A stretch of DNA of 56,743 nt. Source: Chloroflexia bacterium (GTDB lineage: Bacteria > Chloroflexota > Chloroflexia > Thermomicrobiales > CFX8). Shown here one piece after another: positions 2,742 to 15,403 of this stretch (positions are counted from its first letter, which is position 1; each line of letters opens with the position of its first letter). The position numbers and the translations under genes were made by a program. The stretch spans positions 1-56,743 of the forward strand of contig JAUIIK010000017.1 in the NCBI GenBank assembly GCA_030431755.1, given 5' to 3'. Under the pieces are notes generated by a model that worked only from the letters and a program-made list of their open reading frames with translations, was not told where the DNA came from and searched no databases.

Positions 2742-2757
2742 GTAGCCACCGGGCTAC
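2742..2757. terminator. Short hairpin between convergent genes (weak terminator candidate)
   Basis: GTAGCC and GGCTAC form a 6-bp stem around a 4-nt loop, between the lipoprotein gene (plus) and the VWA gene (minus). It overlaps the VWA stop codon. Neither side has a clear T-run, so intrinsic termination is only a possibility. Confidence 0.25.
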
Positions 2758-4892
2758 GCGCGCTCGAGCTTCTTCTTGTTCGACACGTAGTCGACGAGCA
2801 GGTACTCGCCCAGCCGATCCGGTTCGGCAAAGAAAGCCCGGCCCTTGTTGATCTTCGCGATCTCCTGGACGAAGCCGGTCATATAGGGGCTGCGGTCCAT
2901 CATGAACGTATTGATCGTGATCTGCTCGCGGGTGCAGCGCACGACCTCCTTGAGCGTCTCCTGCAACGTCCGCCACGTCGGCGGGTAGTTGAAGTGAACG
3001 TCGCCAAACTCGTCGAAGTGGGCCGTCGGCTCGCCGTCGGTAATGACAATGATCTGCTTACTGCCGCCCTTGTGTCGACCGAGCATCTGCCGCGCAAGCA
3101 TCAAGCCATGCTGGAGGTTTGTGCCGTAGTTGTACTCGTCCCAGGTGATCGTCGGCAGATCGGTCGGCTTGAGCTCCGTTGCCACGTAGGAAAAGCCAAC
3201 GATGTAGAGGCTGTCACGCGGATACTGGCCACGAATCAAGCTGTCCAGCGCCAGCGCGACCTTCTTGGCCGCCGAGAAGCAGCCGTTGTAGAGCATTGAG
3301 CGGCTCATGTCGACCATCAGGACCGTTGAAGTCTGTGTCGTCATCTCCGTCCGGTAGACCTCGAAGTCGTCGGGCATCAGCTGGAGCGGCGAGCCGGGTC
3401 CTTCGCGGTAGACCGAGTTCCGCAGCGTCTGCGGCAGGTCCAGCAGGAACGGATCACCGAACTCGTAGCGCTTCGACTCGTCGATGCGCTCAATGCCGAA
3501 GCCGCCGCGGTCCATCTGATGCTGGCCGATACGGTCTTGCTTTAGCTGCTGGAAGATATCGTTGAGCGCCTTCTGGCCGATCTTCCGGATACCGCGTGGC
3601 GTCATCTCAAAGCCGTCGCGGTTGCGGCGGATGTAACCGGCGTCCTCAAGCATCTTGGTCAGCTCGCGCAGCTGGTTGATGTCCTGACGGAACTGATCGC
3701 CCAGCAGCTTCTGCAGCTTGTCGTCATCGAGATTCTCGAGATCGCGCCAGTCGCGAACGCCGCGTAGCTGGTCCTCGACCTCCTCCATCTCCTGCAGCCG
3801 CTCCATCAGCCGCGTAGCCTCGGCCAGGCTGAGCTCCTCACCGCCACGGAACTGGAACTGCTGGGCGTAGGGGTTGTCCGGCATCATCTGCGCCAGATTC
3901 TCCGACAGCCGCTGCATCTGCTCCTGCACGCCCGGGTCGTTCATGACGGACTGCATGGCATTCCAGAGCTCCATGCGCTGCTCCGGCGTCATGGAGTCGA
4001 GCAGCGACTGCATCGCCGCCATCTGTTGGGCCATGTGATCCATCAGGTCTTCGAGCGAGTTGATGTCCTGGCCACCGAAGTAGTGGCCGTGCTTGTGCAT
4101 GAACTGCTCGAAGTTCGGGTCCAAGCCGTTGGCTTTGTCCTCAAGCATCTGGTTCAGATCCTTGAGCATGTTCTGGAGACCTTGCATGTCCTGGGAGTTC
4201 ATGTTCTGAAGAGACTGCTGCATGCCTTCAAAGGCGGAGTTGAGCACCTGTTGCTGTAGCTGTTCGACCAGCTCCTGGAACTTCCGGCGCGCACCCTGAT
4301 CCATAAACTCATAGTCCTGTAGCCCGCGGATCTGGCCCGCCGGGTCCTCCGGCAGATCGTGCAGCTGTTCGAGCTTGCGCTCGGCCATCTTCTCCAGCAT
4401 CTCCTGGAGCGCCTGCTGCTGCTCGAAATCATCGAGCTCGGCATCGGGATTGGCTCCAGCGCCATCATCCGCAGCCTGCTCGCTCCCAGCTTGCTGTTCC
4501 CTGTGCCCTGTGCCCTCTTCCCCGCTCGACTCCCGACCCCGCTCAAGTCGCTCCTGAATCCCGTCCCGCTCCATCTGCTTGATCTCTTCGAGACGTTCTT
4601 TAATGTCCTCGAGCACCGAGCCGATGTCGTAGCGATTGAGCTCCTGTTGGCGCATGCGCTTGAGACGATCCATCAGGTCGCGGATGCCGGGCATCTGGCC
4701 GTCCTTGCCATCCATACCCCAGCGCATCAGGCGTTGCAGCGCCCGTTCGAGGTTGCCATCGGCGAGGACGTCGTCGGAGATCGCCTCCATCAGGTCGTCG
4801 GCAGTGAAGTCGGCGATGTGTTGTGTGCCGTCCCAACGCGAGTAGCGCTGCTGAAACCGGGCGCGAATGGGACTGTGAAATCCGTAGCTCAA
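2754..4892 (-). CDS. VWA-domain protein, partner of MoxR/ChlI-type ATPase
   Basis: This is a 712-aa protein organised like the large (ChlD/BchD-type or CoxE-like) partner of a chelatase-type AAA+ ATPase. The N-terminal 450 residues are helical and very rich in Gln, Met and Glu. The C-terminal part is a von Willebrand A domain with a complete MIDAS: DMSRS, the threonine in YGTNLQHG, and the aspartate in VITDGEP. Such proteins act with a MoxR/ChlI ATPase to remodel or metallate a client protein. The start is a TTG at 4892 with AGGAAGGGA eight bases upstream. The gene follows the ATPase gene by 27 bp. No porphyrin or cobalt biosynthesis gene is adjacent, so the substrate is unknown. A heptamer repeat is embedded in the linker (see 4495-4522). 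Confidence 0.85.
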   Translation of the reverse strand: MSYGFHSPIRARFQQRYSRWDGTQHIADFTADDLMEAISDDVLADGNLERALQRLMRWGMDGKDGQMPGIRDLMDRLKRMRQQELNRYDIGSVLEDIKERLEEIKQMERDGIQERLERGRESSGEEGTGHREQQAGSEQAADDGAGANPDAELDDFEQQQALQEMLEKMAERKLEQLHDLPEDPAGQIRGLQDYEFMDQGARRKFQELVEQLQQQVLNSAFEGMQQSLQNMNSQDMQGLQNMLKDLNQMLEDKANGLDPNFEQFMHKHGHYFGGQDINSLEDLMDHMAQQMAAMQSLLDSMTPEQRMELWNAMQSVMNDPGVQEQMQRLSENLAQMMPDNPYAQQFQFRGGEELSLAEATRLMERLQEMEEVEDQLRGVRDWRDLENLDDDKLQKLLGDQFRQDINQLRELTKMLEDAGYIRRNRDGFEMTPRGIRKIGQKALNDIFQQLKQDRIGQHQMDRGGFGIERIDESKRYEFGDPFLLDLPQTLRNSVYREGPGSPLQLMPDDFEVYRTEMTTQTSTVLMVDMSRSMLYNGCFSAAKKVALALDSLIRGQYPRDSLYIVGFSYVATELKPTDLPTITWDEYNYGTNLQHGLMLARQMLGRHKGGSKQIIVITDGEPTAHFDEFGDVHFNYPPTWRTLQETLKEVVRCTREQITINTFMMDRSPYMTGFVQEIAKINKGRAFFAEPDRLGEYLLVDYVSNKKKLERA
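4495..4522. repeat. Four tandem heptamers TGTKCCC-like inside the VWA gene
   Basis: The plus strand reads TGTTCCC, TGTGCCC, TGTGCCC, TCTTCCC. On the coding (minus) strand this falls in the acidic low-complexity linker around GEEGTGHREQQ. Short heptamer tandem repeats of this style are known in cyanobacteria and some Chloroflexota, usually between genes. Confidence 0.6.
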
Positions 4893-4919
4893 TCTGGCGT
4901 CCCTTCCTGACTCTTCGTC

Positions 4920-6332
4920 CTAGCTCTGGTAGCGCACGGCTCCGGCGGCGTTCCCGAGGTCGTCCTTGTTGAGCTTGCGATTGAGATGCAGCCCCTCGAG
5001 GATGAATTCGACACCGGATGCCACGCCTTGCGGATTGCCGGAAACACCGAGCTTCATCAACGCGTCGCGCATGCCGTCCATGTGCGAGACCTGGTGGACG
5101 TACTCCATGGCATCCATGTCATCGGCGACCTCGACGGTCAGGCCGTTGTCGAAGGCCAGTACGAGATCGTCGAACTCGCGCACCGAGTAGTAGCTATTGA
5201 AGGTGCTGACGATCGCGCCCTGGATGAGCTTCTCGATGACCCGGTCCTCTTGAGCATCGCCCATCGTCTCGAGCTCGATCTTGCCTGTCGTCGAGGCAAA
5301 GACGGCGCGCAGATCGGAAACGCGCGGTACCGCCGTCGGCTCGCCTGCACGGATCGCCCGTTTGAGGGCATTCGAAACGATGTTCTCGTAGTTCGCAATT
5401 GACATGCGCACCGAGACGCCCGAACGCTGGCTGATGTCGTGGCTGCGTCGCGCCAGGTGGGTCACGTCGGCGATTACTTCACGCATGAATTGCGGCACGG
5501 TAATCTCCACGCCGTCTGACACGAATGCGGCGCGCTCCTGCTCCATGATCTCGATCTCGATGTCGATCGACTGTGGGTAGTGGGTGCGAATCTGGCTGCC
5601 GTAGCGGTCCTTCAGCGGCGTGATGATACGGCCACGGTTGGTGTAGTCCTCCGGGTTGGCGCTGGCGACCACGTAGACATCCAACGGCAAACGCACCCGG
5701 TAGCCACGGATCTGGACGTCGCGCTCCTCCATGATATTGAGCAGGCCGACCTGGATACGCTCGGCGAGGTCCGGCAGCTCGTTCATGATGAAGATGCCGC
5801 GATTGGTCCGTGGAATCAGGCCATAGTGGATGGTTAGCTCGTCGGAGAGGTACCGACCTTCAGCAACCTTGATCGGATCAACCTCGCCAATCAGGTCGGC
5901 GATCGTCGTGTCCGGCGTCGCCAGCTTCTCGGCAACTCTGTCGTTGCGATGGATCCACTCGATTGGCGTATCGTCGCCCTTCTCGGCAACCAATTCGCGC
6001 GCCAACAGTGACACCGGATCGAACGGACTGTCGTTGATCTCCGAGCCTTCGACGGTCGGAGTCCACTCATCGAGCAGATTGACCAGACTCCGCGCCATGC
6101 GGGTCTTGGCCTGGCCACGTTCGCCGAGGAAGATGATGTCCTGCCCGGAGAGAATCGCATTCTCGATCTGGGGGATAACCGTCTCTTCGTAGCCCATAAC
6201 GTCGGCAAACAGCGGTTCACTCGAACGCAGCCGGGCGATCAGGTTCTTTCGCATCTCCTCGCGGATTGGCAGGATTTCGTAGTCGCTCTCTCGCAACTCA
6301 CCGAGCGTAGCCGGCAGCTTCTCTTGCGCCAT
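4920..6332 (-). CDS. AAA+ ATPase of the MoxR/magnesium-chelatase ChlI type
   Basis: This is a 470-aa ATPase. The Walker A motif GERGQAKT lies at about residues 70-77. A Walker B-type segment, GIFIMNELPDL, follows, then the chelatase-like VYVVASANPEDYTNRGRI sensor region and an R-rich lid. It is the predicted motor for the VWA protein encoded 27 bp downstream. I chose the ATG at 6332 because GGGAGGA lies about 10 nt upstream. The longer GTG start at 6377 has no ribosome-binding site. Family knowledge suggests metal insertion or maturation of an enzyme complex. It is not a photosynthetic BchI by context, and nothing here names the client. Confidence 0.88.
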   Translation of the reverse strand: MAQEKLPATLGELRESDYEILPIREEMRKNLIARLRSSEPLFADVMGYEETVIPQIENAILSGQDIIFLGERGQAKTRMARSLVNLLDEWTPTVEGSEINDSPFDPVSLLARELVAEKGDDTPIEWIHRNDRVAEKLATPDTTIADLIGEVDPIKVAEGRYLSDELTIHYGLIPRTNRGIFIMNELPDLAERIQVGLLNIMEERDVQIRGYRVRLPLDVYVVASANPEDYTNRGRIITPLKDRYGSQIRTHYPQSIDIEIEIMEQERAAFVSDGVEITVPQFMREVIADVTHLARRSHDISQRSGVSVRMSIANYENIVSNALKRAIRAGEPTAVPRVSDLRAVFASTTGKIELETMGDAQEDRVIEKLIQGAIVSTFNSYYSVREFDDLVLAFDNGLTVEVADDMDAMEYVHQVSHMDGMRDALMKLGVSGNPQGVASGVEFILEGLHLNRKLNKDDLGNAAGAVRYQS

Positions 6333-6541
6333 TCGTATCTGTTCCTCCCTGTAGGACTGCCACGTAGACGCGTTCACGCCGTCACTGAAATCGCGAATTT
6401 GCGGGATGCGGTTCCGTTATCCGGGTCGACGAAACCGGGCGAGTGTCGCGGGGCTGCGACGGCGGCGGGGCAATCTGTCAGACAAGGTTAATCGTACAGG
6501 TTTCCGCCGAAGTGGAGTAGGGCAATTGCTACCGCCGCTGG

Positions 6542-7927
6542 CTAGTGGCGGCTCATACGCTCTGCCAGCGAGGAACCGTCCGGCGCGACGCCGGTCTGCT
6601 CCGCCTGCTCGTCCAGCTTGAAATATTGTTGCTGCACATAGCGCACACCGGCGTACCGGAATGGCTCTGGCTCCCAGTCCGGCGAACGGTGTCCGACCGT
6701 CGGCAGCCAGGCCAGGTCGGACTTTGTGCCGGTAATCAGATCAGCCAGCACACGCCCGGAGAGGTTCGACGGCGCGACGCCTTGGCCGGTGTAACCGCGC
6801 GCGGTCGCGATCCCGGTCGTCCGGTTGTAGGACATCGTCGGCATCCAGTCGCGTGGCACTCCGAGCGGCCCGCCCCAGGCGTGGGAGAACTGGTCCTCCC
6901 GGACCGGCTTGAACCACTCCAACGTAGCTTGCCGCAGCATCTCGTGCGTCGGCTCGTGACGGTCGAACGCATCGTCGATCTGCGAGCCATAGTGGTAGGG
7001 AGCGCCCCGTCCGCCGAAGAGTATGCGACCATCGGCGGTCTTCGAGAGGTAGTCGACCACATACTTGCTCGATCCGATGCACTCGCGGCCCTGCCAACCG
7101 ATCTCTTCCCACTGCGCGTCGTCAAGCGGCTCGGTCAGCACGATCAAGGAGTAGATTGGTAGGACCTGCCGCGACAGCTGTTCGAGCTGCGAGAGATACG
7201 CTTCGCCGCAGAGTACGACGACGTCGGCGCGCAGGTCGCCGGCGTCGGTATGCAGGACCGGCCGTTTACCAGTTGAGAAGCCCGCCGCCGCCGTCTGCTC
7301 GTAGATCCTCCCGCCACGCCGCTCGACGGCCCGGGCCAGCCCGCGGACGAGCTTGCCTGGATGAATCGTGGCGCAGTTCGGGTTGAAGAGTGACGCTATC
7401 GCCCCACGCACGGCCACACGCGCCTGGGTCTCTGCTTGGTCGAGCAATTCGTAGCCCTCAGCTATGCCGCGTTCCTGCAATGCCCGGAAGGCCGACTCGA
7501 TTGAGCCAAGTTGATGCCGACCACGTGCTAGCCGGAGCGAACCGCCCTTCTCATAGTCGCACTCGATACCCTCGCTAGCCGCAACTTGGCCGACGATGTC
7601 GACGGTTGCCGTCATCTCACGCTGCACCTGGCTGGCCGCGCCGGCGCCGTAGCGCCGCTCAAGCTCCCCCATGCTCAAGGGGAAACCACCAGAGCACCAA
7701 CCACCGTTGCGACCGGAAGCGCCAAACCCGGCGATCTCCTTCTCAACGATCGCGACATTCAGCGAGGGATCTCGTTGCAGAAGATAGTAGGCAGTCCAGA
7801 GGCCTGAGAACCCAGCTCCGAGAATTGCGATGTCGACATCAGCGGAACCGTCAAGGGCTGGCCTGGGAGTGAGGTCGTCCCCGCACGACTCCAACCAGTA
7901 GCTGTAGTTGCTGTAGTCCTTCGCCAT
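6542..7927 (-). CDS. FAD-dependent oxidoreductase, DAO family (HcnC / PuuB-like)
   Basis: This is a 461-aa flavoprotein with an FAD-binding GAGFSG at residues 37-42 and the SGRNGGWCSGG segment typical of gamma-glutamylputrescine oxidase-like DAO enzymes. It should oxidise an amine or imino acid at the C-N bond. The ATG at 7927 is preceded by GGAG at 6 nt; the longer start at 8002 would read into the previous gene. Gene order (small ferredoxin-like subunit, NAD/FAD subunit, DAO subunit) matches hcnABC and opine-oxidase operons, and the gap to the middle gene is 31 bp. Whether it acts alone or in a three-subunit complex, and its substrate, cannot be read from sequence. Confidence 0.87.
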   Translation of the reverse strand: MAKDYSNYSYWLESCGDDLTPRPALDGSADVDIAILGAGFSGLWTAYYLLQRDPSLNVAIVEKEIAGFGASGRNGGWCSGGFPLSMGELERRYGAGAASQVQREMTATVDIVGQVAASEGIECDYEKGGSLRLARGRHQLGSIESAFRALQERGIAEGYELLDQAETQARVAVRGAIASLFNPNCATIHPGKLVRGLARAVERRGGRIYEQTAAAGFSTGKRPVLHTDAGDLRADVVVLCGEAYLSQLEQLSRQVLPIYSLIVLTEPLDDAQWEEIGWQGRECIGSSKYVVDYLSKTADGRILFGGRGAPYHYGSQIDDAFDRHEPTHEMLRQATLEWFKPVREDQFSHAWGGPLGVPRDWMPTMSYNRTTGIATARGYTGQGVAPSNLSGRVLADLITGTKSDLAWLPTVGHRSPDWEPEPFRYAGVRYVQQQYFKLDEQAEQTGVAPDGSSLAERMSRH

Positions 7928-7958: not shown

Positions 7959-9167
7959 TCAGTCGACTGCGGCGGCCATTTGCGCGAGGTCCGCCAGCGC
8001 AACGAGCCGCGCCGGCGGCCGGGCGGTCATCGGCACCAGCTGGTCGAGCGTGATTCCGGTTTGCACGCGGATCATGCGCGCAATGACGTACTCGGTATCG
8101 CGACCCTGGGACGCGCCCATGCCGGCTCGCGTCTTGCGCTTCACATCGTTGACGCTTACCGCACCGCTCTGGATCGCATCCCGGATGCAGGCGGCTATCA
8201 CTTGCTCCTCGCGGTCGACCTGTACTTCGTCCGGGATCCGCGCCGCGTCGCCAACATCGATGTGCGGACCGCGCGCCTGGACCGCGTCCGCCAGCGCCGA
8301 CATCGCGGTCGCAAGCTCATCACTGTCCGTCGCGGCGAATCCGGCGACGTAGCCTTGCGCCGCGGCTTCGGCCGCCGTGACGCAACCGCCGGCGTCGCCG
8401 ACGACGTAGACGCCTTCGACCGAGGTCTGCATGTGCGCGTTGCGAATCGGGACGTGGCAACCGTTGGCTGCTGAATACTCCAGGTCGGCCATCGCGTGCC
8501 GCGCCAGCTCCGGATCAGGCAACGACCCCAACGCGAGCACGACAGCATCGACCGCTTCCCGTTCGCCTTCGACAGAGATCCACTCGACAGCGCCATCACC
8601 ACCGGCTTCGACTCCGTCGGGAGTCTGGAAGCGGCTAACGACGCTAGCTCCAGCTGCTTCGAGGTCGGCCTGCAGCTGGTCGGCGTCCGCGCCGCGGCCA
8701 ATGACCGCGACACGCCTCCCCGGCAAGACATAGTGGAGGTGCATGAATGCCCGCGCCGCGCGCGCCGTCATCACACCAGGGAGGGTCCACCCGGCAAATG
8801 GCCAGACGATCTCCGTCGACCCGGTTGCCAGGATGATCTTGTCGGGCCGTAGCTGGTAAGCGCCCTCGGGGCCGTGGACGGCAATGGTGCGGTCCTCGAA
8901 GAGCCCCCAGACAACGCTGCGGTTGCGACAATCGATTGAAGACTGTTCGAGCACTCTCCGCCCATAGCTGGTCGAATCGTAGCCCCGATAGCCTTCGAGC
9001 ACATCGGGCGGGTTGTCGATCTTCTGGATCGACGTGCGCTGCCAACCGCCCATCTGCTCCTGTTCGTCGATCAGGATGACCTCCGCGCCGGGCCGTGACG
9101 CGGTGATCGCCGCCATGATCCCGGACAGACCGCCGCCCACGACCACGATCTGCGTCGTGCCGCTCAT
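7959..9167 (-). CDS. HcnB/opine-oxidase-type FAD/NAD subunit lacking BFD cluster cysteines
   Basis: This is a 402-aa pyridine-nucleotide-disulfide-type flavoprotein. It has GGGLSG near the N-terminus, an ATG box (ILATGST), a second dinucleotide fold after about residue 150, and YVVGDAGG near residue 270. The C-terminal 88 residues have the shape of a BFD-like [2Fe-2S] domain (VKRKTRAGMG, then xQGR), but the ligand positions are V317, R319, S353 and T358 instead of four cysteines. The start codon overlaps the stop of the upstream small subunit by 4 nt (ATGA), with GGGGTGAG as ribosome-binding site. It most likely forms a complex with its two neighbours. Electron transfer must differ from cluster-containing relatives. 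Confidence 0.85.
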   Translation of the reverse strand: MSGTTQIVVVGGGLSGIMAAITASRPGAEVILIDEQEQMGGWQRTSIQKIDNPPDVLEGYRGYDSTSYGRRVLEQSSIDCRNRSVVWGLFEDRTIAVHGPEGAYQLRPDKIILATGSTEIVWPFAGWTLPGVMTARAARAFMHLHYVLPGRRVAVIGRGADADQLQADLEAAGASVVSRFQTPDGVEAGGDGAVEWISVEGEREAVDAVVLALGSLPDPELARHAMADLEYSAANGCHVPIRNAHMQTSVEGVYVVGDAGGCVTAAEAAAQGYVAGFAATDSDELATAMSALADAVQARGPHIDVGDAARIPDEVQVDREEQVIAACIRDAIQSGAVSVNDVKRKTRAGMGASQGRDTEYVIARMIRVQTGITLDQLVPMTARPPARLVALADLAQMAAAVD

Positions 9168-9481
9168 GACGACTCACCCCAGTCGCCCAGTCCCTGCTGA
9201 GTGTCGACAACCATGCCGTCCCGGACCGGGGTTCGCATCAGCTGCACATTCGCCTCGCCGTCGACCGTGCCAAGCTCTTCTGTTGATCTGCCAACGCCGG
9301 TGAAGACGCCACGCGGCTCACCAGTCTCGGGCATCGTGCGAACCGCCCGCAGGCCCGCTGCCAGCAGCGCCGCCGCCACCGGCTCGCCCTCGAATGCCGT
9401 GATCGGTTCACCATCGACGGTGATCGACACGGCGCTGCCGGCCGGTCTAACGCCGAGAATTGGATGTTTTGAGATTCGCAT
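9164..9481 (-). CDS. HcnA-like ferredoxin-fold subunit with all four cysteines replaced
   Basis: This is a 105-aa protein aligning end to end with the small [2Fe-2S] subunit of HCN synthase/opine oxidase/SoxA N-terminal type. It has an SITVDGEPITAFEGEPVAAAL start, GEPRGVF, NVQLMRTPVRDGMVVDTQ and the usual length. In relatives the cluster is held by C-x4-C-x2-C-x12-C. Here the same four positions read T61, S66, E69 and M82, and the protein has no cysteine at all. Spacing between the positions is exactly kept. I used the ATG at 9481; the TTG just before it is less likely. It overlaps the next gene by 4 nt. It should be a structural subunit without a redox centre. Confidence 0.82.
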   Translation of the reverse strand: MRISKHPILGVRPAGSAVSITVDGEPITAFEGEPVAAALLAAGLRAVRTMPETGEPRGVFTGVGRSTEELGTVDGEANVQLMRTPVRDGMVVDTQQGLGDWGESS

Positions 9482-9505
9482 CAACGCCGTTCGTCCTCTT
9501 CAACC

Positions 9506-9994
9506 TCATGCGATATCGTCCAGCACTTTTACCATGATCAAGCAGGGATTCCCCGGCCAAAGCCCGTGGATCTCCTCGACGGGGAGGAAGCCCAGCGCGG
9601 CGTAGAAGCGTCGTGTCCCAGCGTAGTTGGGGTCAGGGTGCGATGGGCCCAGGGTCTTGACCTCCAGCAGACGCTTGCCGCGCTCGACCGCGATGACGGC
9701 CGCCGCCTCGATGAGCTTGCGGCCGATGCCGCGGCGGTGGAAACGGCGAGCGACCGCCATAACGTGGATCTCGGTGGTGGACTCGTTGTGCTCGTTCAAC
9801 GCCAGGAATCCGGCAATCTCGTCGCCGGCACGCGCCACCAGCAGCTCCATGGCCTGCATGTCCTCAACGTAGGCGGCGATTGACTCTTCAATCCCGAACC
9901 AGTCCGGTAGTTGGCGGAGGATCGCCTCGCAGGCGTCAACATCGTCACCGGTTGCCAGATGTATGTCGAACGCGGCGTCGGTCCCGTCTACCAT
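9506..9994 (-). CDS. GNAT family N-acetyltransferase
   Basis: This is a 162-aa single-domain GNAT protein. The acetyl-CoA binding signature is RRFHRRGIGRKLIEAA (motif A), followed by RRFYAALGFLPVEE, the usual C-terminal strand. The ATG at 9994 overlaps the stop codon of the phosphoribosyltransferase gene (ATGGTAG), so the two are probably translationally coupled. An AGGA lies 8 nt upstream. The acceptor substrate is unknown. Coupling with nicotinate phosphoribosyltransferase is the only contextual hint and does not name it. Confidence 0.88.
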   Translation of the reverse strand: MVDGTDAAFDIHLATGDDVDACEAILRQLPDWFGIEESIAAYVEDMQAMELLVARAGDEIAGFLALNEHNESTTEIHVMAVARRFHRRGIGRKLIEAAAVIAVERGKRLLEVKTLGPSHPDPNYAGTRRFYAALGFLPVEEIHGLWPGNPCLIMVKVLDDIA

Positions 9995-11208
9995 TCCGAC
10001 GGTCCTGACTGATCGATCTCCGGGCCTGCGATCTCGAGCTGGCGCAACGTGCGCGCCCGTATCTCAACCGGCGTCGGAAGCTCGTCAACAAGACGGCCAT
10101 CGTCGAGCAAGCTCACAAGCTGCGGCACGAGGCCGGGACGGTCGGGGTTCGCTTCCAGAGGTAGAACAGTGTCGCGCAGCGTCGACTCGTCCCGCCAGAC
10201 CTGCTTCGCGCCCGACATCTTGCCGCGCTTCGCAACCGCTTCGCCGTCAAGCTCCACGAGATCCATGCTGAAGTCAATCGTCCCGGCATTGGCGATGCTT
10301 GTGCCGACACCGAAACCGTCGACCAGTGGCCGCAGCTCGCGCACGGTCCGCTCGTTCAAGCCGCCACTGACGAATATCTGGACATGTGAGTGGCCACGCA
10401 TATCCAGTTCCCAGCGGACTTCCCGGATGATCTGGGCGAAGTCACCCCGCCGGCTGCCAGGCGTGTCGAGACGAATACCTGACAGCTTCTCCCCGAACGC
10501 CTCGGCCAGCCGCACCGCCTCAAATTTCTCGTCCTGGAAGGTGTCGATTAACGCGATGCGCGGCACATCTTCTGCAATGGTCGCGTCATACAGGCGCATC
10601 GCTTCGAGCGTGTCGCCGACGACGAGGATCAACGCGTGCGGCATAGTGCCGGTCGGGTCCGCGCCCAGCAGCTCCGCGCTCTTGAGGACGCTGACGCCGT
10701 CGCAACCGCCAATATAGGCGGCTCGCTCGATCACCGGCGCGACGGCCGGGTGCATCCGGCGCGCGCCGAAGCTAATCAGCGGCTTGTCGCCGGCCGCATG
10801 CCGTACCCGTGCCGCCTTCGTCGCGACGCCCGATGACTGGCAGACGAGGCCCAGAATCGCCGTCTCAAGCTGCGCGAAGGCTTGATAGCGCCCTGTGATC
10901 TCGAACACCGGCAGGTGCGGCCGGATCAGCGACCCTTCGGGAAAGCTACGCATCGAGACCGGGAAGCCGTCCAGCAGCGCGAAGACTTCCTCCAGGCCCG
11001 TGAAGACGGCCCAGGGCATATGGTCGGGCAGACCCTTGACCGCGAACTCGGCGCGGACCAGCGGATTGAGGTCATGCTTTTCGAGGATTTCCAGCGTGCG
11101 CTCGAAGTACACGTCCGCCGTGCGTCCCGCCCGAATCTCCGCGGACGTCGCCTGGTGAAATTGCGGCTGCCGCGAGCTCCTGGTGTCTGCGCGACCTTCG
11201 CCTGCCAT
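9988..11208 (-). CDS. pncB: Nicotinate phosphoribosyltransferase
   Basis: This 406-aa enzyme joins nicotinate and PRPP to give nicotinate mononucleotide in NAD salvage. The N-terminal half has the family pattern: a YFERTLEIL helix, the FPEGSLIRPHLPVFEITG strand region, LETAILGLVCQSSGVATKA and SFGARRMHP. The barrel has LIDTFQDE, then SGIRLDTPGSRRGDF, IFVSGGLNE and FGVGTSIANA, which form the PRPP-phosphate site. Start is the ATG at 11208, with CGGAGG five bases upstream. It heads an apparent minus-strand run of pncB, GNAT and the hcnABC-like genes. A near-perfect palindrome lies 27 bp upstream (11235-11255). Confidence 0.92.
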   Translation of the reverse strand: MAGEGRADTRSSRQPQFHQATSAEIRAGRTADVYFERTLEILEKHDLNPLVRAEFAVKGLPDHMPWAVFTGLEEVFALLDGFPVSMRSFPEGSLIRPHLPVFEITGRYQAFAQLETAILGLVCQSSGVATKAARVRHAAGDKPLISFGARRMHPAVAPVIERAAYIGGCDGVSVLKSAELLGADPTGTMPHALILVVGDTLEAMRLYDATIAEDVPRIALIDTFQDEKFEAVRLAEAFGEKLSGIRLDTPGSRRGDFAQIIREVRWELDMRGHSHVQIFVSGGLNERTVRELRPLVDGFGVGTSIANAGTIDFSMDLVELDGEAVAKRGKMSGAKQVWRDESTLRDTVLPLEANPDRPGLVPQLVSLLDDGRLVDELPTPVEIRARTLRQLEIAGPEIDQSGPSEW

Positions 11209-11939: not shown

Positions 11940-11976
11940 CTGCACAAGCTATCGCCAGGTGTCGAACGGAGTGACA

Positions 11977-13026
11977 GTGCTAGGTTCGGAACGGTTCCTA
12001 CGAGCATGCCGGCTCCAACCCGTCGATTGCACGCCAGTTTGGTTCATGCGTCAGGCAGGCCGCTACCAGGCAGCCTATCGGGAAATCCGCAAGCAACACA
12101 CGATTCTGGACATCATCGCCAGCGCAGAGCTCTCGGCACAGGTGACGATGCTGCCGGCCAACGCGATGGCGGTCGACGCCGCGATCATCTTCGCCGACAT
12201 CATGCCACCGCTGGTGCCGCTCGGTATGCAGCTCGAGTACGCCGCCGGCGAGGGACCGATCTTCCACAATCCGATCCAGACCGCGTCTGACGGCGACGCC
12301 CTTACGCCATACGACCCTGCCAGTGAGCTCAAGCCGACCCTCGATGCGCTACGCACGGTGCGCGCGGAGCTCGACGGACGCGCCGCGCTGATCGGCTTCG
12401 CCGGCAGCCCCTTCACGCTGGCAAGCTACATGATTGAGGGCGGACCTTCCCGCAACTACGCCAAAGTCAAACAGTTCATGTTCAGCCAGGAAGCCGCCTG
12501 GAACCGGCTGATGGACACGCTCGGCCAGATGACCAGCGACTATCTCATTGCCCAGGTCGAGGCCGGCGCTCAATGTGTCCAGCTCTTCGATTCCTGGGCA
12601 GGTTCCCTGGCTCCACTGGACTTCCAACGCTACGTCCTGCCGACGACGACACGTATTGTCGAGCACGTGCATGCAGCTACCGATGTCCCGATCATTCTCT
12701 TTGGCGTGCATACCAGCGGCATGCTCGATCTCATTGCCGAGGCGGGCAGCGATGTCGTCGGCGTTGACTGGCGCATCCCGCTCGGACGCGCCTGGGAGAT
12801 CATTGGCTTTGACCGGGCAATCCAGGGGAACCTCGATCCTATCCGGCTCTTCGACTCCGGCGCTTCGCTACGCGCCAGCGTCAAGGCCGTGCTGGACGAG
12901 GCAGGCGAACGTCCCGGCCACATCTTCAATCTGGGCCACGGGATCATCCCCGGAACGCCCGAACCTACAGCGAGTGAAGTGGTTGACCTCGTGCACGAGC
13001 TGAGCGCGCGGCACGTAGAAGGATAG
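11977..13026 (+). CDS. hemE: Uroporphyrinogen decarboxylase
   Basis: This 349-aa enzyme removes four carboxyl groups from uroporphyrinogen III to give coproporphyrinogen III. Signature 1 (PVWFMRQAGRY) appears near the N-terminus and GFAGSPFTLASYMIEGG corresponds to signature 2. The conserved aspartate of IIFADIMPPL and the C-terminal NLGHGIIPGTP are present. I chose the GTG at 11977 because GGAG lies five bases upstream; GTG codons at 11959 and 11971 are in frame but poorly spaced. It is the first gene of a hemE-hemH-hemY unit, 10 bp before hemH. Confidence 0.95.
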   Translation: MLGSERFLRACRLQPVDCTPVWFMRQAGRYQAAYREIRKQHTILDIIASAELSAQVTMLPANAMAVDAAIIFADIMPPLVPLGMQLEYAAGEGPIFHNPIQTASDGDALTPYDPASELKPTLDALRTVRAELDGRAALIGFAGSPFTLASYMIEGGPSRNYAKVKQFMFSQEAAWNRLMDTLGQMTSDYLIAQVEAGAQCVQLFDSWAGSLAPLDFQRYVLPTTTRIVEHVHAATDVPIILFGVHTSGMLDLIAEAGSDVVGVDWRIPLGRAWEIIGFDRAIQGNLDPIRLFDSGASLRASVKAVLDEAGERPGHIFNLGHGIIPGTPEPTASEVVDLVHELSARHVEG

Positions 13027-13036
13027 GAACCCGACG

Positions 13037-13987
13037 ATGAGTGGAGGACGCAGGCGCGTCGGCGTCATGATCATGGCGTACGGAGGTCCGAACACGCTCG
13101 CGGAAGTACCGGCATTCCTCGCCGACATCCGTGGCGGCCGGCCCACTTCGCAGGAATTGATCGACGAGATCACCGAGCGCTACGAGCAGATCGGCGGCAG
13201 CTCACCGATTCTCGAACTGACAACTGCTCAGGCACAGAGCATTGAGAACGAGCTAAACGCGAACGGTGGCGACACCGAGTACCGCTGCTTTGTCGGCATG
13301 CGCCACTGGCTCCCCTATATCGAGGAGGTCGTGCCGCAGATGCTTGCCGAGGATGTCGATCTCGTCGCCGGCGCAGTGATGGCGCCCCACTTCAGCCGCA
13401 TGAGCGTCGGCGCATACATGGGCAAACTCACGAAGGCGCTCAAGGAACAGGGCGTTGACCTGCCAGTGATTCAGGTCCGAAGCTGGAAGGACGAGCCGGA
13501 ATTTATTGGCTCGATCGCAACCCGCATCGAAGCTGCGATGTCCCGGCACTACCCCGACAAGCAGCTCAACGACGTTGTCGTGCTCTTCACCGCGCATTCG
13601 CTCCCGGCCCGCATCCTGGAGTCAGGAGACCCTTATCGCGAAGAGATCTTGACCTCGGTCGACCTGGTCGCGGAGCAGCTTGGGTTGACGAACTACCGCT
13701 TCGCTTTCCAGAGTCAGGGCGCGTCAGGCGACGCCTGGCTTGGCCCGACGGTTGAGGAAACGCTGGAAGAGTTTGCAGGCAACGGCATCAAGGAACTGCT
13801 CTTCGTGCCGATTGGTTTCGTCTGCGACCACGTCGAGGTGCTCTTCGACGTCGATATCGAGCACAAGCAGCAAGCTGAAGAGCTGGGCATTCGCCTTGAA
13901 CGTACCGAGATGCTCAACGACGATCCCGGACTCGCCAAGGCGGTCGCCAATGCGGTGCGCGCGGCTGTGGCGGAGGCCAGCGACTAG
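13037..13987 (+). CDS. hemH: Ferrochelatase (coproporphyrin type by context)
   Basis: This 316-aa protein inserts Fe2+ into a porphyrin. The catalytic pair is visible: His187 in LFTAHSLP and Glu268 in GFVCDHVEVLFD. There is no C-terminal membrane anchor or added domain. Its place between hemE and hemY copies the hemEHY operon of Bacillus, where the enzyme uses coproporphyrin III (CpfC) and haem is finished by the decarboxylase ChdC. No chdC is in the window, so substrate choice is inferred from order only. Confidence 0.93.
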   Translation: MSGGRRRVGVMIMAYGGPNTLAEVPAFLADIRGGRPTSQELIDEITERYEQIGGSSPILELTTAQAQSIENELNANGGDTEYRCFVGMRHWLPYIEEVVPQMLAEDVDLVAGAVMAPHFSRMSVGAYMGKLTKALKEQGVDLPVIQVRSWKDEPEFIGSIATRIEAAMSRHYPDKQLNDVVVLFTAHSLPARILESGDPYREEILTSVDLVAEQLGLTNYRFAFQSQGASGDAWLGPTVEETLEEFAGNGIKELLFVPIGFVCDHVEVLFDVDIEHKQQAEELGIRLERTEMLNDDPGLAKAVANAVRAAVAEASD

Positions 13988-15403
13988 ATGCCAGCGCGGG
14001 TCGCCGTTGTTGGGGCCGGGATTTCCGGGCTGGCCGCGGCAGTCGAGCTACGAGCACGCGGAATCGACGTTATCGTCTTCGAGGCGAGCGACCGCGCTGG
14101 CGGCCCAATTCACACTGTCCGCTCAGACGACTACATCATCGACGCCGGGCCGGACTCGTTCCTGTCGACGAAACCAGGCGGGATCAGTTTCGCGGAACGG
14201 CTTGGCATTGCCGATCAGCTCATCAACACCAGCCCCGACGGCGGCGGCACCTATATCGTCCACGACGGTGCGATGCAGCCGCTCCCGGAGGGCATCACGA
14301 TGCTGGTGCCGACGCAGTTCCGGCAGATCCTTGAATCACCGCTGCTCGACTTCTCCGGCAAGGCGCGGCTCCTCGGCGACTACCTCATTCCAGCCCGGAG
14401 TGGCGATGACGACGAGTCCGTGGCTGCGTTCATGCGGCGCAGGGTTGGCCGGCAGGCCTTCGAGCATCTTGCCGAACCACTGCTCTCCGGCATCTTCGCG
14501 GGCGACGCCACGCGACTCAGCATCGAGGCGACCTTCCCCCGCCTGCGCGAAGCCGAACGCCGCCACGGTGGTCTGATCCGCGCGGCGCTGGCAGCGCGGA
14601 AAGCAGCTGCAACGGCGCAGAGCCCACCACGCAAATACACACCATTCGTAAGTCTTCGCGGTGGTCTCGGCGCTGTAGTTGATGCGGCCATAGACCGCAT
14701 CAGCGCGGACAGCATCCGCTACAACACACCGGTCACCGCAATCACCAGCCATGGCACTGGGTACAGACTCGACACTGCGAGCGGCGCTGAGTTCTCTGCG
14801 GACGCCGTCATCCTCGCGACTCCAGCCGGCCCGACGGCCAACCTCCTACGCGAGCTTGCGCCGCGAGCCGCGCAGGCGCTCGAGTCGATCCCCTATGTCT
14901 CGTCAGCGACGGTCTCGATGGCGTTCGACGAGGCGGATGTCCGGGTCGCCGGCGGCGGGCGCGGGTTTGTCGTGCCGCGCGTCGAAGGCTTCGATCTCAC
15001 GGCCGTGACCTGGTCGAGCCGGAAATTCGCCGGACGCGCACCAGAGGGCAGTGTGCTCCTGCGGGGGTTTGTCGGACGGGCGGGCAATGAGGAGCCGGCG
15101 TTCCTTCCCGACAACGAGGTCATCGAGACAGTGCGGCGCGACCTCGCCAGCATCACCGGCATTGCTGCCGAACCACGCTCCGCGCGAGTCTTCCGCTGGC
15201 ACAACGCCATGCCGCAATTCCACGTCGGTCATCGTGAATTGGTGCAAGAGATTCAGGCCGAGATCGGCGCGGTTCCTGACCTGGCCGTGGTCGGCGCAGC
15301 CTATCGCGGCGTCGGGATACCCGACTGCGTCACCTTCGCAACAGGGACCGCAACGAGCCTTGCCGAGTCGCTCAACCATGGCTCCACATCAGCAACCGCC
15401 TAG
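13988..15403 (+). CDS. hemY: Coproporphyrinogen/protoporphyrinogen oxidase, FAD type
   Basis: This 471-aa flavoprotein oxidises a porphyrinogen to porphyrin with O2. It has an N-terminal GAGISGLAAA dinucleotide fold, then FEASDRAGGPIHTV and DAGPDSFLSTKP, which are typical of HemY/CgoX. The C-terminal segment AAYRGVGIPDCV closes the FAD domain. The ATG directly abuts the hemH stop codon. A GGAGG inside the end of hemH serves as ribosome-binding site. With hemE and hemH this gives the last steps of the Gram-positive style haem route. Confidence 0.92.
   Translation: MPARVAVVGAGISGLAAAVELRARGIDVIVFEASDRAGGPIHTVRSDDYIIDAGPDSFLSTKPGGISFAERLGIADQLINTSPDGGGTYIVHDGAMQPLPEGITMLVPTQFRQILESPLLDFSGKARLLGDYLIPARSGDDDESVAAFMRRRVGRQAFEHLAEPLLSGIFAGDATRLSIEATFPRLREAERRHGGLIRAALAARKAAATAQSPPRKYTPFVSLRGGLGAVVDAAIDRISADSIRYNTPVTAITSHGTGYRLDTASGAEFSADAVILATPAGPTANLLRELAPRAAQALESIPYVSSATVSMAFDEADVRVAGGGRGFVVPRVEGFDLTAVTWSSRKFAGRAPEGSVLLRGFVGRAGNEEPAFLPDNEVIETVRRDLASITGIAAEPRSARVFRWHNAMPQFHVGHRELVQEIQAEIGAVPDLAVVGAAYRGVGIPDCVTFATGTATSLAESLNHGSTSATA

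Follow-up and report, generated by a model that had tools for sequence, protein, structure and literature searches.

An HcnA/HcnB-like gene pair of a Chloroflexia bacterium lacks the cysteine ligands of both [2Fe-2S] sites and retains the FAD motifs

Introduction

Can an enzyme module whose relatives carry two [2Fe-2S] motifs lose the cysteine ligands of both and still work? The question is raised by a pair of overlapping genes on a contig of 56,743 nucleotides from a Chloroflexia bacterium of the Thermomicrobiales (JAUIIK010000017.1, assembly GCA_030431755.1); the whole of this stretch is referred to here as the window. The pair is related to the gamma and alpha subunits of HCN synthase and of the dehydrogenases that act on opines, hydroxyproline, or proline. 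In opine dehydrogenase, an alpha (HcnB-like), a beta (DAO), and a gamma (HcnA-like) subunit together hold Fe-S and three flavins, two FAD and one FMN, the FMN lying at the alpha/beta interface, and the R-x-W motif of beta subunits has been tied to FMN (PMC4575208). The OdhABC and HcnABC systems (opine and D-hydroxyproline dehydrogenases and HCN synthase) resemble the window pair in that gamma (HcnA) and alpha (HcnB) are encoded as distinct subunits, with FAD and with the domains in the same order. They differ in that both [2Fe-2S] motifs are present, opine dehydrogenase having iron, FAD, FMN, and an R-x-W beta subunit, whereas the window has neither Fe-S motif and no convincing beta subunit. 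A preliminary description of the window had claimed that the two cluster domains lost their ligands together and had taken this to suggest selection for a non-Fe-S electron path.

Results

The HcnB/OdhA/PDH1-alpha-like subunit is encoded on the minus strand at 7959..9167, with an ATG at 9167 and a stop codon at 7959-7961, and the resulting open reading frame of 402 aa bears out the gene boundaries and strand first given for it. Residues 1-300 form an FAD-type two-Rossmann part (Pyr_redox_2, E 7e-21), and a Cys-less BFD-like C-terminal domain occupies residues from about 315 to 400. The sarcosine oxidase A3 domain profile SO_alpha_A3 (E 2e-9) fits this C-terminus better than Fer2_BFD, whose match (0.001) is under the curated cut-off. 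Examination of the alignment revealed that the GxGxxG, ATG, and GD motifs of the HcnB/OdhA-type two-Rossmann FAD fold are all kept, as GGGLSG with E35, ATG at residues 114-116, and GVYVVGDAGG.

None of the four BFD-type [2Fe-2S] ligands, C-x-C plus C-x4-C, is a Cys in this protein. In an ungapped alignment to relatives, CRCEQV stood opposite DREEQV and CQGxxC opposite SQGRDT, which places the former C-x-C pair (8208..8216, minus strand) at D318 (GAC, 8214-8216) and E320 (GAG, 8208-8210) and the former C-x4-C pair (8094..8111, minus strand) at S353 (TCC, 8109-8111) and T358 (ACC, 8094-8096). The preliminary description had the absence of BFD-type Cys right, along with the persistence of KRKTRAGMG and QGR and the residues S353 and T358; V317 and R319, which it gave for the other pair, are each one position off.

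The HcnA/OdhC-like subunit, of the [2Fe-2S]-ferredoxin fold, is encoded at 9164..9484 on the minus strand (105-106 aa), and the end of its gene overlaps the start of the HcnB-like gene by ATGA. The 2Fe-2S ferredoxin-like fold is recognized by Fer2_4 (E 7e-21), and the AlphaFold2 model is strand-rich and of moderate confidence (pLDDT 74, with about 54-63 in blocks near the former ligand loop). The C-x4-C-x2-C-x11-12-C ligand pattern of HcnA/OdhC gamma subunits is absent; by alignment, the ligand sites are now T62, S67, E70, and M83 (0/4 Cys). All four ligands have been replaced, as had been claimed for this partner of the HcnB-like subunit, and a Fer2_4 match in the HcnA family is not proof of an iron-sulfur cluster. 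The replaced positions (D318, E320, S353, and T358; T62, S67, E70, and M83) might conceivably make up new, non-Fe-S metal sites, with carboxylates at two of the BFD Cys positions and D/E also in sequences of the sarcosine oxidase alpha (TSOX alpha) type. However, D/E substitutions are common and conservation can be read from one sequence only, and we consider such sites extremely improbable.

The loss of Cys from HcnA and HcnB is real and specific, not decay. To turn the eight ligand codons back into Cys codons would take at least 18 base changes, and of the non-Cys positions conserved in at least 80% of relatives' sequences, the window retains 50 of 53 (13/13 in HcnA, 14/15 in the BFD-like domain, and 23/25 in the FAD domain), compared to 0 of 8 Cys. 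Taken together, these two observations point to specific loss rather than decay, and the early observation that both cluster sites are missing from one otherwise constrained gene pair thus holds. A hypergeometric P of about 6e-8 for Cys-specific loss is illustrative, with positions taken as independent. Both reading frames are intact across the ATGA overlap and codon-position GC is normal. That number of base changes over eight codons with intact frames excludes a sequencing or assembly error, and the retained conserved positions, together with a branch that is not accelerated (see below), exclude a pseudogene. An organism lacking Fe-S biogenesis was also rejected as an explanation, as SufB/SufD-type genes (SUF machinery) are present in the genome. 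We looked for a second, Cys-intact HcnAB copy in the source genome and found none.

To place the loss among relatives, we surveyed 61 genomes of the order Thermomicrobiales and sequences from many phyla, together with a phylum-level search. A contig scan with the window protein alone yielded no relatives; an alignment query recovered them. One scan pattern, [KR]RRTR[AC]GMG, sits between the BFD ligands and excludes them, so Cys was not directly selected, and it would miss very divergent BFD domains. Two loci (L203 and L214) were excluded because of too little upstream sequence; at L147, an intact HcnA is present downstream. HcnA-like genes occurred in 31 of the 61 Thermomicrobiales genomes, and HcnAB orthologues of this order had 4+4 Cys in all cases where both genes were fully readable. 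About 114 distinct HcnA/BFD pairs in the whole survey retain all 4+4 Cys. Apart from the window, only three long ORFs, of the TSOX-alpha type, showed complete double loss (L213, L215, and L210, the last with gaps in the HcnA ligand columns). Among the Thermomicrobiales examined, double [2Fe-2S] loss is limited to the window lineage, represented by one genome. A search of the open-access literature yielded no report of HcnAB having naturally lost both clusters. The survey also turned up four genomes (G002, G020, G024, and G038) in which the FAD subunit is immediately followed by an ORF of about 100 aa that encodes the BFD-type [2Fe-2S] domain on its own (L033, L039, L092, and L108).

The HcnA and HcnB cysteines had been expected always to be lost together, and this proved not to be the case. 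In the alpha subunit of the L-proline dehydrogenase PDH1 of Pyrococcus horikoshii (1y56), the HcnA-type domain has no ligand Cys, a loss noted in 2007 by Burroughs and colleagues (PMC1949818), yet the BFD motif (CGCD...CQGRYC) is intact; likewise, no HcnA was detected in three genomes whose BFD Cys are intact (G026, which is 96% complete in four contigs, G033, and G050). Two genomes of genus g23 with no detectable HcnA have partly eroded BFD ligands, CERA in G035 (L034:8061-9113) and CDCC in G043 (L105:1968-3137). A fully intact HcnA beside an eroded BFD was not seen anywhere in the survey. A Fisher test of BFD erosion against missing HcnA gave 5e-8, a value that is illustrative, since the sequences share ancestry and a gene missing from an incomplete MAG may not be truly absent. 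The loss order in this sample suggests nesting: erosion of BFD ligands is confined to cases in which the HcnA cluster has already gone, which fits loss of the outer cluster first.

Several of these loci have features of their own. A DAO gene with R-x-W overlaps the HcnB-like gene of G035 by 4 bases, and in a Rhodospirillales MAG (L149:426-1175) an HcnA-type YCCC, with the first Cys only replaced, adjoins an intact BFD motif. The HcnB-like gene of G026 (L037:9400-14963) lies near genes that we named by eye, from N-termini only, as PTS EI/HPr/DhaM, glycerol kinase, DhaL, and DhaK, and glycerol kinase and PTS-like genes, named in the same way, are also near that of G036 (L049). These neighbors suggest a possible link of HcnB-like to glycerol or dihydroxyacetone metabolism in the two genomes.

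For a tree of the FAD and BFD parts, we masked the ligand columns. The window sequence fell within a well-supported clade made up of 16 Thermomicrobiales rows, grouping with the G002 and G001 copies, both of which have four BFD Cys, and its end branch (0.64, compared to 0.50 and 0.59 for the G001/G002 neighbors) was not accelerated. Identity to the Thermomicrobiales HcnAB of G002, G018, and G022, which belong to one clade with it, is 46-50%. The TSOX alpha losses formed a separate 100% clade beside Cys-containing long-chain relatives, which excludes direct descent from sarcosine oxidase alpha. Since the window and TSOX-type losses fall in separate clades, they are independent, and on the evidence of this tree the window pair is an independent case of a double cluster loss already known in the enzyme family.

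The AlphaFold model of the HcnB-like protein has a mean pLDDT of 86.5, reaching 93-97 across residues 311-350 of the BFD-like domain even without ligands. The top structural matches extending over the BFD-like domain were 1y56_A, 2gag_A, and 1vrq_A. PDH1 alpha was the best of these (1y56_A; Z 35.7, rmsd 2.0, 368 residues) and differs from the window pair in keeping four BFD Cys and in having the HcnA-type domain fused; 2gag_A followed with Z 28.6 over 378 residues.

TSOX alpha (2gag/1vrq) has HcnA-like, HcnB-like, and BFD-like (A3) domains without cluster Cys, and Cys-less HcnA-like and A3 domains are a trait that the window pair shares. The ligand residues of TSOX-type survey rows read AEAT/DEDS and SEA-/DEDA (HcnA/BFD), compared to DEST at the BFD sites of the window, with D/E at the C-x-C sites in both. 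TSOX alpha differs in being a single chain of ~950-1050 aa with a GCV_T part, as opposed to two genes of 106 and 402 aa, and the window scored 112 bits with the soxA model TIGR01372, whose cut-off is 1164. Its Rossmann domain has been assigned NADH, not flavin (PMC9045290), and this, along with the equal double loss, favors the view that electron transfer has been lost from the window pair as well, leaving HcnA and HcnB as a non-redox scaffold, a structural or regulatory partner like sarcosine oxidase alpha. However, the FAD signature of the window HcnB is complete and includes VVGDAGG, the GD motif, which has no counterpart in the TSOX alpha alignment; we therefore regard a scaffold as unlikely, though it is the strongest of the alternatives.

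The genes around the pair bear on what it might work with. A DAO-superfamily FAD oxidase gene lies downstream (6542..7927, minus strand; 461 aa from an ATG at 7927; TIGR03329 250 bits, cut-off 633), with 31 bp between the HcnB stop codon and its ATG. A three-subunit complex with this oxidase had been implied, and neither motif nor synteny supports it. The oxidase has H-A-W (HAWGG) where heteromeric beta subunits carry R-x-W, and HAWGG is common to many stand-alone orthologues; its sole R-x-W, RDW at 359, does not correspond to the site that this motif occupies in the R-x-W DAO genes adjoining HcnAB elsewhere. No DAO-type beta subunit with R-x-W is thus encoded with HcnAB at the window locus. 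Orthologues of the oxidase occur beside MoxR in G002-G004 (with VWA too in G003), away from HcnAB, or in genomes without HcnAB. The window carries VWA, a MoxR-type ATPase, and the FAD oxidase at 2754-7927, a module conserved in the family (all three in G003; MoxR and oxidase in G002 and G004). Because relatives hold HcnAB apart from oxidase/MoxR, the window joins two modules. The oxidase as an ancestral HcnAB subunit is excluded on synteny and motif, and it is probably a stand-alone enzyme and not a beta subunit, and is unlikely to be working with HcnAB now. That this oxidase has recruited HcnA and HcnB to form a novel flavin-only enzyme of three subunits would accord with the shared strand, the short gap, and a juxtaposition seen only in the ligand-less genome, but given the HAWGG motif, the lack of R-x-W at that site, and the location of the orthologues, we think it very unlikely.

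Upstream of the HcnA-like gene and in the same direction is a GNAT acetyltransferase gene (9506..9994, minus strand; profile match), followed by a gene for nicotinate phosphoribosyltransferase (NAPRT; 9988..11208, minus strand; NF006415 506 bits). NAPRT is near HcnAB in several relatives, as in the window; NAPRT and/or dcd are found there in G002, G018, G028, and G034. In family f2, the closest-related Thermomicrobiales, HcnAB is usually followed by mannose-6-phosphate isomerase, often with NAPRT, dcd, or NadE near, and BFD is sometimes a separate ORF. The window differs, as the isomerase is missing and the FAD-oxidase/MoxR module is found in its place. Farther along, at 11959-15403 on the plus strand, HemE, HemH, and HemG-like genes stand in a row (named by eye from ORF translations). 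The missing isomerase and the juxtaposed module would suit relaxed constraint or early decay, in which the electron-transfer partner was lost on rearrangement of the locus and Cys went first, and the BFD erosion in the two g23 genomes points the same way. Against this, the conserved positions other than Cys have almost all stayed, as have the frames and the overlap, and the branch shows no acceleration, making decay a decidedly improbable account.

Discussion

We conclude that the HcnA/HcnB pair probably, if by no means certainly, represents a working, cluster-free flavin module in which the folds and the HcnB FAD site have been kept and both [2Fe-2S] sites lost, as judged from sequence and predicted structure. 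As in sarcosine oxidase alpha, HcnA would cap the structure and the BFD-like domain would have a structural or interface role; electrons on the HcnB FAD would go straight to an acceptor (O2, NAD(P)+, or some other diffusible carrier) rather than by way of clusters. From the retained motifs, we infer that the HcnB-like protein binds FAD and is redox-active; since no beta subunit is assignable, the redox role of HcnAB rests on motifs. Similarly, we infer the electron acceptor and any adaptive reason for the Cys loss.

For the non-Fe-S electron path of the preliminary description, the flavin-only precedent of heterotetrameric sarcosine oxidase speaks in favor: it has FMN at the alpha/beta interface and provides a cluster-free alpha subunit within the fold family. 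The argument that the two sites were lost together and so were selected does not stand. One-sided losses exist, and as the double loss is confined to one genome, selection is not separable from relaxed constraint on Cys.

A more far-reaching proposal, which we offer tentatively and consider rather unlikely, is that cluster-free HcnA/HcnB with an FAD site constitutes a distinct functional class, independent of sarcosine oxidase, that arose by stepwise rewiring in which loss of the outer HcnA cluster preceded that of the BFD cluster. The nested order would agree with a linear wire whose outer end is HcnA and would provide a testable rule for the change from multi-cofactor dehydrogenase to oxidase. 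The window pair adds to this enzyme family an independent double-cluster loss, here with the FAD site and separate subunits kept; if the proposal is true, such dehydrogenases can be rewired stepwise to flavin-only electron transfer.
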